Source: a virus
Virus record (IMG/VR): IMGVR_UViG_3300023108_002893
Coordinates: 1-26,653 of that record
DNA length: 26,653 bases
Reading direction: 5' to 3' (one strand)
The number at the start of each line of letters is the position of its first letter. The stretch's first letter is position 1. This document shows, in pieces, positions 4,177 to 11,901 of the stretch. The notes under the pieces are model-generated. The model saw only the letters and a list, made by a program, of their open reading frames with translations, was not told where the DNA came from and ran no database searches. The position numbers were made by a program, and so were the translations under genes.

Positions 4177-5049
4177 CTACTTTAAGTGTTGCTTTAAAAT
4201 TTTACTTCTACTTCTGTGTTTTAAAACTCTTATTGCTGCATCTTTTATTTGTCTAACACGCTCTCTTGTCAATTCATAATATTCTCCAATTTCTTCTAAT
4301 GTCATTTTTGGATAACCCATAAGGCCGTAGTACATGCAAACAATTTCTCTCTGTCTAAGTTTTAATGTTGAAATTACTGTTTCTATATCTGTCGACAAAG
4401 ATTCTTTATCCATAAACATCTCTATATTGTTTTCTTCTTCTAGAATTATAAGGTCATTCAAAGTATTAGAACCACTATCGTCATCATTTTTTATCGGAGC
4501 ATCTAGAGATGAATGTTTTTTACTAACTCTTATAAGTGTGCTTATTTTTTTCACATCTTCTTCCATCATTTCTGATATTTCTTCTTCTGTTGGAGGTCTT
4601 TGATTTTTCTGTTCAAAATCTTGAAAAAATTTATTCATTTTATACAATGAAGTAATTTGATTAGATGGAATTCTTATAAGTCTTGAGTTGTTTGCTAAAG
4701 CTTCCATTATGGATTGTCTAATCCACCAAACAGCATAAGATATAAATTTAAAACCTCTAGTTGAATCAAATCTTTCAGCAGCTTTTATCAGTCCAATATT
4801 TCCTTCATTTATTAAATCTTCAAATAGTATTCCCTGATTTTGATACTGTTTAGCTACAGTTATTACAAATTTTAAATTGGAAACTATAAGCTTTTCTTTT
4901 GCCAGCTCATCTCCTTCTTTAATTTTAACAGATAAATTAATCTCTTCTTCTTCTGTTAGTAATTCTATTTTTGATATTTCTGATAAGTAATTTTTTACAG
5001 AATCACTATCTCTGTTAGTGATTTGATTGGTTATTTTTATTTGTTTCAT
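4177..5049 (-). CDS. Primary-type sigma-70 factor (Bacteroidetes RpoD-like), copy 1
   Basis: A 290-residue sigma factor expected to bind host core RNA polymerase and direct it to phage promoters. It begins MKQIKITNQITNRDSDSV, nearly the same opening as Bacteroidetes primary sigma factors. Region 1.2 is about 15-50, region 2 about 52-128 (including FEDLINEGNIGLIKAAERFD and YAVWWIRQS, 105-113), region 3 about 130-185, and region 4.2 has an intact helix-turn-helix LTRERVRQIK (260-269) keeping the RER residues that contact the -35 element. In region 2.4 the residues after WWIRQSI are MEAL rather than the LQAL of the second copy. Length matches the host housekeeping sigma, which lacks a long region 1.1. 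A -7-like element lies 33 bp upstream, and a terminator separates this gene from copy 2. This is not a T4 gp55-type minimal sigma. Confidence 0.95.
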   Translation of the reverse strand: MKQIKITNQITNRDSDSVKNYLSEISKIELLTEEEEINLSVKIKEGDELAKEKLIVSNLKFVITVAKQYQNQGILFEDLINEGNIGLIKAAERFDSTRGFKFISYAVWWIRQSIMEALANNSRLIRIPSNQITSLYKMNKFFQDFEQKNQRPPTEEEISEMMEEDVKKISTLIRVSKKHSSLDAPIKNDDDSGSNTLNDLIILEEENNIEMFMDKESLSTDIETVISTLKLRQREIVCMYYGLMGYPKMTLEEIGEYYELTRERVRQIKDAAIRVLKHRSRSKILKQHLK

Positions 5050-5082
5050 TCATTTGTATATGTTAGTATTTGCAAATTGTTA

Positions 5083-5090
5083 CAAATATA
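5083..5090 (-). promoter_or_regulatory. Bacteroidetes-type -7 element upstream of sigma copy 1
   Basis: TATATTTG on the minus strand matches the Bacteroidetes -7 consensus TAnnTTTG, 33 bp before the ATG at 5049. The -33 position, about 19 bp further upstream, lacks a clear TTTG and is T-rich terminator sequence, so the match is partial. Confidence 0.4.
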
Positions 5091-5113
5091 ATGTTTTTTT
5101 ATAATAAAAAAGA

Positions 5114-5140
5114 ATTGCTAGTAAAATAATTACTAACAAT
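5114..5140 (-). terminator. Intrinsic terminator after sigma copy 2
   Basis: An 11-bp stem, 5114-5124 paired with 5130-5140 around a 5-nt loop, contains one wobble pair and is followed on the minus strand by a T-rich tract (TTCTTTTTTATTAT). It lies 22 bp after the stop of sigma copy 2 and before copy 1, so the two sigma genes can be expressed independently. Confidence 0.7.
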
Positions 5141-5162
5141 CCTCTCTTTTATTTGTTATGTA

Positions 5163-6020
5163 TTATAAATACTTTTTCAACAAATTTACAGCGCTTTTAT
5201 TTCTAGACAATTTTTTTTCTGCACCTCTACTAATTTGCCTAATTCTCTCAGCTGAATAGTCTAGCTCATAAGCCAATTCTTCTTTACTTTTTGCTTTACA
5301 ACCTATTCCATACAATTTCTTTATAACATAAACTTCTCTTTGACTTAGAATATTCAAAGCTCTTTCCATGTCTTTAGTTAAAGATTCGTCTATTAAAACT
5401 TCTTTATCGCTAGAATCATTTGGTATTACATCTATCAAAAGCGAAGAGTTATCTTCTGTTGAAATTTTTCTATCTAAAGAATCTGTTTTTGAACAAATTT
5501 CTTCTAAAACTTTAATTTCTTTTAGAGAAATTTCCATATGTTCTGCCAACTCTAAAGAAGTAGGATTTCTCTCAAGTTGTTGGTTTAAAGTAGATAATGA
5601 AGCATAGTATCTACTAACAAGTAAATTTTTATTAGAAGGTATTTTAATGATTCTGTTTTTGTCAGACAAAGCTTGTAATATAGATTGTCTAATCCACCAA
5701 ACAGCATAAGATATAAACTTAAAACCTCTGCTTGAGTCAAATCTTTCAGCTGCTTTTATCAAGCCTATATTAGCCTCATTTATCAAGTCGGTTAATTCTA
5801 ATCCCATGTTTTGGTATTTTTTTGCAACACTAATTGCAAACTTTAAATTTGCAACAACCAACTCTTCTAGAGCTTTTTCATCACCCTCTTTAATTCTATT
5901 TGACAATTCAACCTCTTCTTCTGGAGAGATTTCTTTTTGTTTGTTTACATCATTGAAATATTTCTCTACAGATTTTTCGCTTCTATCAGTTAATGTTTTT
6001 TGAATTTTAAATTGCTTCAT
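5163..6020 (-). CDS. Primary-type sigma-70 factor, divergent copy 2
   Basis: A 285-residue sigma factor paralogous to the gene at 4177-5049. The ATG at 6020 is chosen because MKQFKIQKTLTDRSEKSV aligns with the start of copy 1 and of host primary sigmas; an in-frame ATG at 6047 would add nine unrelated residues. Region 2 is strongly conserved (LINEANIGLIKAAERFD, YAVWWIRQSILQAL, about 79-118), keeping the -10 recognition and melting face. Region 4.2 is divergent: YELDYSAERIRQIS (251-264) has Ala257 in place of the usual first Arg of the RER -35 contact, and the linker before it (CKAKSKEELA) is unusual. It probably reads a different -35 element or relies on an extended -10 or an activator. It carries its own terminator downstream. 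Confidence 0.93.
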   Translation of the reverse strand: MKQFKIQKTLTDRSEKSVEKYFNDVNKQKEISPEEEVELSNRIKEGDEKALEELVVANLKFAISVAKKYQNMGLELTDLINEANIGLIKAAERFDSSRGFKFISYAVWWIRQSILQALSDKNRIIKIPSNKNLLVSRYYASLSTLNQQLERNPTSLELAEHMEISLKEIKVLEEICSKTDSLDRKISTEDNSSLLIDVIPNDSSDKEVLIDESLTKDMERALNILSQREVYVIKKLYGIGCKAKSKEELAYELDYSAERIRQISRGAEKKLSRNKSAVNLLKKYL

Positions 6021-6124
6021 AGTTTTATAAAATTGATTACAAAACATAAACGAAACAAAAATAAAAATATTACAAAAAAATTGATTTTTTTTTTACAAAA
6101 TTAATTTAAAGAATAAATAAATGA

Positions 6125-6919
6125 TTATTTTTTGGCTTTTAAATAAGCTATTCTATCTCTTATTTTAGCGCAAAGTTCAAAGTTATCACTTTTGATTGCA
6201 CTCTTCATTACCTCATTTAAAAAAGGAATGTTATATATATCATTAATTTTACTTTCTATTACAAACTCCATGTCATGACCTGTAAAGTTATCCACATCAT
6301 AAGAGCTTGATATGTTATACCCTGGGTAGAATGTTTGATTTGGAATTTCTTTAAAAACTATACTGCTTACTATACTTTCTATTATTTTATCCCTTTCTTC
6401 TGTGCTTACATCTAATATATCTGAAAGATTTGTGTTATTTCTAATATCTTTCATCATATTATTGTTTTCATAATCATTGCACATTTTCCTAAAATCTGGT
6501 GGGAGATTTTCTATATCCATTTTACAAGATACATTATTTATTGTATTATATATTGATATTTTATTTTTTTCTTTGTTAGTTGTTGCAACTAAATAGCAAC
6601 CAGACAAATCGTAAAACAAGCCTAACTTTTTAAAATAGCTTGGTTGTGAGTTCTTTTTTTCAAGAAATTTTATAAATTTTCTATTTGTATCTTCATCTGA
6701 GAATAAAATATAATTTCCACTGTCATTGTCAAAATTAAATTCTTCAGACACATCTTTACAATCTATTACTAGATAATAATTTAATTTAGAAATATCTTCT
6801 AACTTTGATATGGGACTTTCTGGTTTGTTTTTTATAGACTTTTCTATTTTCTTTTTCAACAAGCTAAACCTTTCTAGTTTTTTTGCTTTTTCAAAAGATA
6901 TTTTTTTGGATATTCTCAT
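6125..6919 (-). CDS. Hypothetical protein with C-terminal UVR-like motif
   Basis: A 264-residue protein with no recognised enzymatic domain. The N-terminus is strongly basic and helical (KKISFEKAKKLERF, LLKKKIEKSIKNK). The middle is a mixed alpha/beta region (YYLVIDCKDV, NYILFSDEDTNRKF, LGLFYDLSGCYLVAT). The last 32 residues, FLNEVMKSAIKSDNFELCA then KIRDRIAYLKAKK, match the UVR motif (A-x(5-6)-F/Y-E-x-A-x-x-RD-x-I) that mediates UvrB-UvrC contact and also occurs in McsA and ClpC-type proteins. A second protein in the window (10102-11901) ends in the same motif. The gene lies between the 122-residue protein and sigma copy 2. A coiled interaction hairpin is likely; the overall role is unknown. 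Confidence 0.75.
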   Translation of the reverse strand: MRISKKISFEKAKKLERFSLLKKKIEKSIKNKPESPISKLEDISKLNYYLVIDCKDVSEEFNFDNDSGNYILFSDEDTNRKFIKFLEKKNSQPSYFKKLGLFYDLSGCYLVATTNKEKNKISIYNTINNVSCKMDIENLPPDFRKMCNDYENNNMMKDIRNNTNLSDILDVSTEERDKIIESIVSSIVFKEIPNQTFYPGYNISSSYDVDNFTGHDMEFVIESKINDIYNIPFLNEVMKSAIKSDNFELCAKIRDRIAYLKAKK

Positions 6920-6967: not shown

Positions 6968-7336
6968 TTAACTATTCCAATCTAAGTTACAGAAAAAATC
7001 TTTCAATCTTTCAAAGCTTTGCCTATCTATATCTACTGATTTTTCAACCATTTCTTTTTTTTCCATATCTATTCCCATAAAATTTATAGATAAACGTCTA
7101 GTCTCTTTACCTTTCTCTCTAGAGATAATTAAATCAACTTCTAATGCACTAACAGGTTGACCTGATGCATCTTTTTCAGATATTATTTCTATATATGTTG
7201 ATGGAGCTTCATTAGTTTTTGGCAATACTGTTTCTGTAGAATTTAAAACGGATTGCATTTCAGATTTTGTATTAACTTTTTCCTCATTGTTTACTCCATA
7301 ATCTTCTGAGATTCTTGAATTTTGAACTTCTTCCAT
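6968..7336 (-). CDS. Hypothetical protein, 122 aa
   Basis: Not recognised. The first 45 or so residues are polar and probably disordered (Glu, Asn, Ser, Thr-rich). The rest looks like a small beta-rich domain with charged strands (STYIEIISEKD, SALEVDLIISREK, ETRRLSINFMGID) and a helix ending SFERLKDFFCNLDWNS. It starts a transcription unit: a terminator sits upstream after hsp20, and a sigma-70-like promoter lies between that terminator and the ATG at 7336. It ends 48 bp before the UVR-motif gene. No membrane segment, metal site or enzymatic motif is visible. Confidence 0.6.
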   Translation of the reverse strand: MEEVQNSRISEDYGVNNEEKVNTKSEMQSVLNSTETVLPKTNEAPSTYIEIISEKDASGQPVSALEVDLIISREKGKETRRLSINFMGIDMEKKEMVEKSVDIDRQSFERLKDFFCNLDWNS

Positions 7337-7358
7337 AATTTTTATTTTATTAACTGGT

Positions 7359-7386
7359 AATATAATATGTTTATTATAAAAGTCAA
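7359..7386 (-). promoter_or_regulatory. Candidate sigma-70-like promoter for the 122-aa gene
   Basis: On the minus strand TTGACT (7386-7381) is followed after 16 bp by TATATT (7364-7359), 23 bp before the ATG at 7336 and just downstream of the hsp20 terminator. Its placement in a new transcription unit supports it; AT-richness makes chance matches common. Confidence 0.4.
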
Positions 7387-7472: not shown

Positions 7473-7946
7473 TCACTTAACTTTTATAGTTCTTTTTCTT
7501 TTTATTTCAGATTCTTTTTTAGGTATATTAATGAATAATATTCCGTCTACATACTCAGAAGTTATTTTATCTAAATCTGAAGACTTAGGCAACAAAAAGC
7601 TTCTTGAAAAAGATTCTACTTTAAATTCTTTTAATTTAACTTTAGAATCTTCATTTAGAACTTCTTCCTTTTTATTAAACTCCACCTTTAAAGTAAAATC
7701 ATCAATAGACAAATCAATTAAGTCTTTTTTAACACCAGGAACTTGAATTTCTAGGGAAAAAGATTTGTCATCTTCTAAAAAATTAGACTTTACATTATTA
7801 AAAACAAAATCTCTACTTATTCTATTTGTTGGGAATAAATTTTCAAAATCATCTAAAAAAATTTTGTCTAATTGTCTAAACGTATTTCCTAACAAGTGAA
7901 AGTCAGGAATTCTTGTTGGGAACTTTTTTTCTTTAATAGTTAACAT
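7473..7946 (-). CDS. hsp20: Small heat-shock protein, Hsp20/alpha-crystallin family
   Basis: A 157-residue ATP-independent holdase chaperone. The alpha-crystallin domain covers about 55-145: FSLEIQVPGVKKDLIDLSIDD is the classic opening strand pair, and DGILFINIPKKE the conserved G-(I/V)-L-x-(I)-x-(I)-P-K end. The C-terminus RTIKVK holds an I-x-V motif of the kind that drives oligomer assembly. Hsp20 genes are known in T4-like phages, notably cyanophages, where they are thought to help head or tail assembly or protect proteins during infection. Here the gene is a single-gene transcription unit between two strong terminators, with a TTGACA element upstream, so it can be regulated separately from its neighbours. 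Confidence 0.95.
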   Translation of the reverse strand: MLTIKEKKFPTRIPDFHLLGNTFRQLDKIFLDDFENLFPTNRISRDFVFNNVKSNFLEDDKSFSLEIQVPGVKKDLIDLSIDDFTLKVEFNKKEEVLNEDSKVKLKEFKVESFSRSFLLPKSSDLDKITSEYVDGILFINIPKKESEIKRKRTIKVK

Positions 7947-10101: not shown

Positions 10102-11901
10102 TTATCCTCTTGAATTTATTTCATCTCTAATTTGAGCTGCTTTTTCATAATTTTCACTACCTAAAGCTTTAGCTAAAGCATTATTTAGCTCATCAATTTC
10201 CATATCTTCTAATCTCTTTGTTGGAGCTGGCTCTTCTTCTTCTACTTCTGGCTCTTCTAACCTTTCATCATCATTGTTAAGAGCTCTTAAAATATCATCT
10301 GTATTATCTGCTCCTCCTGTAACTATATCATCTGCTTCTGGTTTTTCTCCATCATTTTCTTCTTCATAGTTATCAATATCTTCTTGTATTTCATCTAACA
10401 AATTAGTAAGCATTGGTATAGCTTCAGCTCCATCATGTAAAACTGTGTCCATCAAATTTAAAAAATCGTCTGGTTCTAACATTGCTAATTCGTATAATAA
10501 AATTGAATAAATACCATTATCATAATCATTGTTTGGGTCTTCGACTATAAGTTTAATTAAGTCATTTAAATATTTCCAAACTCTATTACCTAAAAGTTTC
10601 ATCCAGTGCTCTTCTTGGTAAGAATCTGCTCTACCCAAAACAGCTTTTCTCATGTTTGCAGGTATATTTTCTATACTGTAAGCAAATATATATTCTAAAT
10701 AAGCTTTTGCAACTTCATGTATTAGTATAGGAAATAAATGAGCAGAACCTTTAGCTCCAGTAACTTCTCTAACTTCTTCCATTCCTGGTTCATCATCTCC
10801 TTGTTCTTCTTGGCCTTCTTGGTCTTCTCTTTCTCCTTGAGGTCCTCCAAATTCTAATTCAGATTTACCCATATTGTGTCTTATACCAACTTGTTTAGGG
10901 CTAAATTGCCAAGTTGTTAATTCTACATTTGGCATAAGTTGAGCATATATTGGATAAAGTTCTGGGTTTATTGCATCTAATGCTTGTTTTACATCTTCTA
11001 TTTTTATTTTTTTATGAGTTGCATATCCTGCTCCCATAGAAAGTAGATTTTGCATAACCCTTTTGCTTATATGCTTTTTTATAATTTCTTGTTCTTGTTC
11101 TGTAAATTCATCTTCTAAAACTTGTTGAAGTTGCTCTTCCTGTTCTTCCCCATTGTCTTCTTCCATGTCTATATCTGGGCCGTTTTCTAAACTTCTTAAG
11201 TCTGCACTTATTTTGTCCATTATTCTATCTTCAACTTTAAATGCATCTTTAACCACTCTTAATGCAAGTTGCTCTAAAGCTTCTTTATGTCTTTGCTCAA
11301 TCATACTTGCCATCATTACATTTTGCATCATAGACATTTGATTTAACAAACCAGCTTCTCTTGCATTTGCTAACACTTCATTAAACTCTTCAGTTCCTAA
11401 TTTTGAAATTGTCTTAAAATCAGGCTCTCCTTTTTGGAATAAATCAATTTTATCAAAAGGTGTAGATTCTGAATCTTCTTGACCAGAAAGTCCAGACTTT
11501 ATGTCTGGGTGTATATATCTATCTGCTGCACCCTCATCATCAGGTCGTAAAGGAGCTTCATTTATAAATCTTCTATATTTATTGTATTCATATATTTTTC
11601 TAAACTTTCTTTCTAAAGAATTTTTATTTTCTAACTTAATTCCTTTTATTGACTTTAACAAATCCTCTACATCTTTAGTAACTTTTGCTAATTCGTCTTG
11701 TGCTTTTTTTATTGCCTTTGGCTTAATATCTGTGTTAGGCTTAGGGTCTCTATCTGGAATTCCTCTCCTTCTTTTTTTTCCTGTATCTTTTTGAGTGTCT
11801 GTATCTGGTTTAGTTTGAGTTTCTGATTCTAAAATTCTTCTTTTTTCTAACTCTTTTTTTACAGCTTCTCTTAAAAGTCTTAAAAATTCTTTTTTTTCCA
11901 T
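10102..11901 (-). CDS. Large acidic hypothetical protein with C-terminal UVR-like motif
   Basis: A 599-residue protein. The start is basic and helical ([20 protein letters not shown]). Central helices (about 165-225) are Met/Gln-rich ([20 protein letters not shown]). There are acidic linkers (about 245-265 and 365-385), a conserved-looking helical domain with [22 protein letters not shown] (about 390-411) and [20 protein letters not shown], and a very acidic tail region. The last 36 residues, [19 protein letters not shown] then [10 protein letters not shown], are a clear UVR-type motif. HEVAK is not a complete HExxH, so a metalloprotease is not claimed. Similar 'LIHEvaKg' proteins of unknown function are, to my recollection, found in marine T4-like phages. 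A structural or scaffolding role is plausible but unproven. The gene lies downstream of the nrdA terminator with its own candidate promoter. Confidence 0.75.

Follow-up and report, generated by a model that had tools for sequence, protein, structure and literature searches.

The window, that is the whole stretch of DNA analyzed here, is a virus record of 26,653 bases with 28.7% GC and its main genes on the minus strand. Two genes encoding RpoD-like sigma factors are found in tandem on this strand, S1 (4177..5049, 290 aa) and S2 (5163..6020, 285 aa). An earlier note on this DNA had described a tandem pair of full-length primary-type sigma factors at 4177-6020, and these coordinates are exact. 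Regions 1.2-4.2 are covered in both proteins by four Pfam domains each (Sigma70_r1_2, r2, r3 and r4), all matched above the curated cut-offs. The start of S2 was set at 6020 because the mechanically called ATG at 6047 overlaps a promoter-like motif; the starts of its homologs, which begin with M(K/R)(Q/S)(L/F/I)K, agree with this choice. S1 and S2 of the window are 43.7% identical to each other, and share 55.2% and 45.9% identity, respectively, with one Bacteroidales RpoD. Minimal sigma factors of the gp55 type are without region 4, whereas S1 and S2 both have regions 3 and 4. That S2 could be an ECF sigma (regions 2 and 4 only, with a region 4 of r4_2 type) was also considered and ruled out, as it has r1_2 and r3. 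No Sigma70 r4_2 match is present within the window.

The two proteins differ in the helix that reads the -35 element. This helix is intact in S1 (TRERVRQIKD), while the corresponding TRERVRQ segment is SAERIRQ in S2, which bears out the RER motif previously noticed in the first copy and the alanine at its first position in the second. Among the 11 tandem pairs described below, an arginine at the position of Escherichia coli R584 is found in every S1 (11/11) and in no S2 (0/11), to be compared with 18 of 19 cellular RpoD proteins. The S2 residue at this position is Ala in the window and N, T, P, S, G or K in the other pairs. The equivalents of E585 and R588 are retained in all S1 and S2 of these pairs. 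In region 2.4, W434 and Q437 are likewise retained throughout, W433 is missing from two S2, and R451 is replaced by Lys in 5 of the 11 S2. The claim that the second copy keeps its region 2.4 face thus holds in the window for W433, W434 and Q437 and fails for R451, which is Lys. The numbering of all these residues follows that of sigma-70 proteins in general, and the roles given to them here are presumed. Loss of the R584 equivalent alone is not special, since many single phage sigmas have no Arg at this position either.

A strong intrinsic terminator, consisting of a hairpin and a U-run, is located between S2 and S1 on the minus strand (5106..5143; about -21 kcal/mol, z -7.2), in agreement with the terminator reported earlier between the copies. 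Four close relatives have a hairpin and a U-run of different sequence at the same position. Directly upstream of S2 is a gene encoding a 264-aa protein with a C-terminal UVR motif and a CAKIRDR hairpin (6125..6919, minus strand), followed further upstream by a small gene (6968..7336, minus strand, 122 aa) that is kept in five close genomes and heads the presumed S2 transcription unit. A promoter-like site, TTGACTTTT...TATATT, lies 5' of this unit on the same strand (approximately 7356..7386) in five close genomes. It sits downstream of a hairpin and takes the variant form TTTACTTTT in L003. A gene for an HSP20 small heat-shock protein (7473-7946) adjoins the sigma cassette.

The UVR-motif protein gene is present in all 11 cassettes, always directly 5' of S2. 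No match to the protein was found in 50,697 phage records and no family was recognized beyond the motif itself. A fold search returned nothing significant, the top non-significant match being a chain of the McsB-McsA complex. When 2.9 million viral contigs were scanned, the family was detected at 17 loci, all 17 beside S2, with scan patterns that were drawn from these same loci. S1 also adjoins in 16 of the 17, and in the remaining one the contig ends. A second protein with a C-terminal UVR motif is encoded at 10102-11901 of the window (599 aa); it has counterparts at 57% in G002 and G004, and no PHROG match.

The genes of the window on the minus strand include, together with the two sigma factors and HSP20, a UvrD-like helicase, an exonuclease and the large and small chains of ribonucleotide reductase. 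A DnaB-like helicase, a 5'-3' exonuclease, a UvsX-like recombinase, a gp32-like SSB and a family A DNA polymerase are also among them. The window shows synteny with two longer records, over about 52-79 kb for G002 (125 kb) and about 54-79 kb for G004 (232.5 kb). All phage records used are metagenomic and possibly incomplete, and their gene calls are mechanical. The carriers of the cassette are large tailed phages, as seen from their portal, terminase, tape measure, baseplate hub and tail sheath genes. No match to an RNA polymerase beta subunit was obtained in the 7 phage records searched for it. Judged from the sigma type and the promoter type, the host is suggested to belong to the Bacteroidota. 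In nucleotide comparisons with named phages, only a short conserved stretch of S2 was found, in Lak megaphages, LR756500 and one gut phage record; within the stretch examined, LR756500 has a single sigma gene, with no tandem pair and no UVR gene. Two records, G034 (216,699 bases) and G041 (222,069 bases), match complementary parts of G004 and have almost no genes in common, so that a single genome type of about 430 kb may have been split between them. In G004, a protein encoded at 26258-28114 (L199:6258-8111) matches an exonuclease family in its N-terminal part and terminase large subunit families, and is distinct from the product of the main terminase gene at 104904-106565.

Viral contigs often carry RpoD-like sigma genes, with at least 594 stretches for the S2 query. 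In view of this number, and of a gp55-like protein that one close relative encodes as well, the contrast previously drawn with the minimal sigma factors of phages was overstated. The tandem arrangement is rarer than single RpoD-like sigma genes: searching with each of the two proteins and with alignments yielded 11 non-redundant S2/S1 pairs, the window among them. The contigs bearing them belong to several divergent lineages and reach 232.5 kb. The transcription order, UVR-motif protein, S2 and S1, is the same in all 11, and S1-S2 identity within pairs ranges from 37.9 to 49.3%. Some other sequences met in the searches deserve mention. A contig of a Bacteroidales MAG (L146 4003-5858, JAAVFV010000053.1) has two adjacent RpoD genes with TRERVRQ in both, which could be an independent duplication. 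The best database match, 'Microcystis phage MaAM05' (L194, MW495066.1), was set aside because its neighborhood resembles a bacterial chromosome, with acnA, icd, hemW, mnmA and rpoD flanking the match; contigs of Acinetobacter phage MD-2021a (L192, L193) likewise seem bacterial-chromosomal. A Bacteroidota-type RpoD was also found in L139 (CALPOI020000052.1), filed under Planktophila (Actinomycetota), which is probably a binning error.

A tree of 63 proteins, in which alternative sigma groups were sampled thinly (one RpoH), was built to place both proteins relative to host RpoD, as had been proposed. S1 and S2 group with Bacteroidota RpoD and related phage sigmas (support 100/100 against SigA of other phyla), thus with the Bacteroidota primary sigma and not with an unrelated alternative family. 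The 11 S1 proteins are united in a single clade (100/98), next to Bacteroidota RpoD. The S2 proteins form one group by label, with support of 39/37 and longer branches than S1; S2 evolves faster than S1. The AU test did not reject S2 as a single clade (p 0.354), so that a single origin of S2 is neither rejected nor shown. A clade uniting S1 and S2, which would correspond to the duplication suggested by the earlier note, is not rejected either (p 0.385) and is absent from the recovered tree. The pairing of S1 and S2 is clearly old. To judge from these sequences, its source may be either a duplication that took place within a phage or two separate captures.

The stretches preceding mechanical gene calls were searched for promoter-like motifs in G004, G002 and the window, and later in G034. 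This work was exploratory. The class A motif, TATATTTG, is located upstream of S1 (5083..5090, minus strand) and resembles a -7 box of the host sigmaA type: TA(T/C)ATTTG precedes S1 in 11 of 11 pairs, and TATATTTG fits the Bacteroidota -7 box consensus TAnnTTTG (PMC9723704). In G004, class A occurs in 22 sense and 5 antisense upstream regions versus 1.5 expected, and in both G002 and G004 it precedes S1, the ribonucleotide reductase beta gene and one PolIII gene. A stand-alone class C promoter (TTGACTTT) was rejected, as a position weight matrix could not cleanly split it from class A; the TTGACTTT-type site is used here only as a conserved site 5' of the S2 unit.

Class B, with the core (A/C)TATTTAT, is found in 61 sense and 19 antisense upstream regions of G004 versus 9.2 expected, with a peak 10-50 bases 5' of the start codon; no such peak is seen in the reversed control, which is flat. 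Its position weight matrix has no clear -35 element. In relatives of the window, this motif (TATTTATA) precedes the portal, TerL, tape measure, baseplate hub and tail sheath genes. The late box of phage T4 is TATAAATA, from which TATTTATA differs at 2 of 8 positions; the two are also reverse complements of each other, and the orientation of class B was fixed from the sense versus antisense counts.

The motif upstream of S2 is different. Class D was first detected as CGTTTAAAT in the G034 upstream set and later resolved as the bipartite consensus TTGTAAY-N14-16-T(A/T)CGTTTA; its occurrence at S2 in other lineages was recognized only afterwards. In the window it reads TTGTAA-N15-TTCGTTTA (6047..6075, minus strand), and the same motif precedes S2 in 10 of the 11 pairs; the S2 of L064 has no D, one base is changed in L045, and L050 and L051 have a variant end. 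G034 has 9 exact sites (about 0 expected) and G004 has two, including the one at S2; exact sites stand at S2 in the window lineage against a Markov expectation of about 0. None was found upstream of about 79 single phage sigma genes, and a tie between D and loss of the R584 equivalent by itself was rejected because many single phage sigmas without Arg there are also without D. D as a widespread host promoter is unsupported as well, since 198 Bacteroidota genomes, which need not include the host of the phage, were no richer in it than the reversed control. Contigs with several strict D sites are G034-type phages or probably complementary fragments of them. The D-associated genes of G034, G041 and G035 encode a RadA/KaiC-like ATPase, DUF932, an RlaP-type RNA repair protein and, on visual inspection, proteins resembling RNA ligases and ParB. 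None of those examined in these three records is structural, and G041 and G035 share orthologs of two D-linked genes.

Further sigma-like genes are present in relatives. The protein encoded at 165718-166602 of G004 (L206:5718-6599) matches Sigma70_r2 (PF04542) below the cut-off (E 5.5e-5), and has relatives in G019 and G034 (48-49%) and a more distant one in Flavobacterium phage immuto (78174-78872). This family, annotated as hypothetical, is thus shared by uncultured jumbo phages and a named Flavobacterium phage. The AlphaFold model of the protein (pLDDT 68.6) matched many sigma factors among its PDB hits, none of them significant (E of at least about 0.5), and PHROGs and a PDB profile search gave nothing. 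We refer to it as possibly gp55-like, a weak assignment from sequence and model, and do not call it gp55. The distant tandem-pair lineage G034 encodes S1, S2, a gp55-like protein and also an ECF-type sigma of 225 aa near D sites (199979-200656; ORF of L486 1393-2070; Sigma70_r2 and r4_2 above cut-off).

The consistent divergence of the -35-reading helix (11/11) and the different conserved motifs upstream of S1 and S2 fit a division of labor between the two proteins, and to this extent the proposal of the earlier note appears supported. The data also fit one transcription unit and one promoter type for each sigma, which suggests that the phage may steer transcription by the host enzyme in successive, distinct stages. 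Which sigma reads which motif is what we infer from these data. We tentatively favor, at slightly less than an even chance, a reading in which the phage owns two derivatives of the Bacteroidota primary sigma that redirect the host RNA polymerase, S1 to class A and S2 to class D. S1 would be expressed from a host-type promoter and, with its host-type DNA-contact residues, would take over or sustain class A promoters (ribonucleotide reductase, DNA polymerase, S1). Transcription of S2 would begin from the upstream TTGACTTT-type site. S2, its -35-reading helix altered, would then steer the polymerase to class D (TTGTAAY-N14-16-TWCGTTTA), and as its own promoter would be among the D targets, positive autoregulation would result. 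The late virion genes would form a class of their own (TATTTATA), with the gp55-like protein as its probable sigma, and the UVR protein may modulate S2 or S1. A cascade of at least three phage factors, with S1 as a stand-in for the host sigma, S2 neofunctionalized with an autoregulated D class, the gp55-like protein for late genes and the UVR protein as a dedicated regulator, is conceivable and rather more doubtful. Some observations count against this reading: the S2 of L064 is without D, the R584 equivalent is often lost in single phage sigmas that have no D, and the window lineage has few D sites besides that at S2.

Another sigma may read D, since this motif (GTAAC ... CGT) resembles ECF-type promoters and G034 encodes an ECF sigma. 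The strongest rival is that D is read by an ECF-type sigma, the phage's own in the G034 lineage or the host's elsewhere, with S2 being a step of the cascade that is switched on by this ECF sigma, for example under envelope stress at infection, and that reads another class of promoters. The gene of the G034 ECF-like sigma is indeed close to D sites. However, no ECF sigma was found in the G004 record (232 kb, such records being possibly incomplete), which keeps D at its S2, and the lack of enrichment of D in the 198 Bacteroidota genomes, with the same reserve about the host, does not point to a host sigma either. We consider this explanation somewhat unlikely.

It had also been suggested, as an example, that the two copies divide middle and late promoters; in this version S1 would serve the former and S2 the latter. 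Class B (TATTTATA) precedes virion genes and has no clear -35 element, a -10-only type of promoter that would suit the weakened -35 reader of an S2 that has lost the R584 equivalent. Yet S2 itself is preceded by a motif other than class B, the genes associated with motif D look non-structural, and late promoters could be served, as in T4, by the gp55-like protein of G004, G019 and G034, weak as this assignment is. With virion genes carrying this third motif, the middle versus late split is not upheld, and we regard it as improbable. Still less probable is that S1 and S2 both read class A and are partly redundant, the upstream motifs setting the timing and both proteins competing with the host sigma for the polymerase. 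The conservation of W434 and Q437 in both sigmas and of E585 and R588 in S2 would agree with shared promoters; the R584 equivalent, lost in 11/11 S2 and kept in 11/11 S1, would not. Retention of the pairs together through deep divergence (37.9-49.3% S1-S2 identity) also disfavors redundancy.

RpoD-like phage sigmas are already known; what is new is the conserved pair, its partner gene and the split promoters. The phage holds two copies of a host primary sigma side by side, one keeping the host-type -35-reading residues and the other changed. With genes and upstream motifs both in pairs and a common ancestry, this system allows a direct test of how promoter specificity evolves. Predicted promoter classes are also supplied for large Bacteroidota phages without cultured members, as well as a new family of UVR-motif proteins linked only to the sigma cassette. 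Like the Bacteroidota primary sigma of RpoD type, S1 and S2 have domains 1.2-4.2 and a short N-terminus (MRQLKITKSITNR), the window pair being 46-55% identical to it. Unlike it, they are phage-encoded and paired, the -35 helix of S2 is changed, and a UVR-motif partner gene is linked. The RpoD-like sigmas of jumbo phages (group 2) are described in the sigma passages of PMC7824862 as near-full-length proteins of phages without their own RNA polymerase, presumed to recruit the host core enzyme; S1 and S2 are likewise near-full-length sigmas of a large phage in which no polymerase of its own was seen. A conserved sigma pair that has two types of promoter and belongs to a fixed cassette is absent from these passages and from the other literature searched. 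In phage SPO1, gp28 (middle) and gp34 (late) form a sigma cascade (PMC9429907). Several phage sigmas per infection would be a common trait, but S1 and S2 are in tandem and are paralogs of the host primary sigma. Finally, gp55 is the late sigma of T4 (PMC2988020). Relatives of the window phage encode a gp55-like protein, and no clear -35 element accompanies their late motif; S1 and S2 differ from gp55 in having regions 3 and 4, and the gp55-like gene of the relatives lies elsewhere in the genome.
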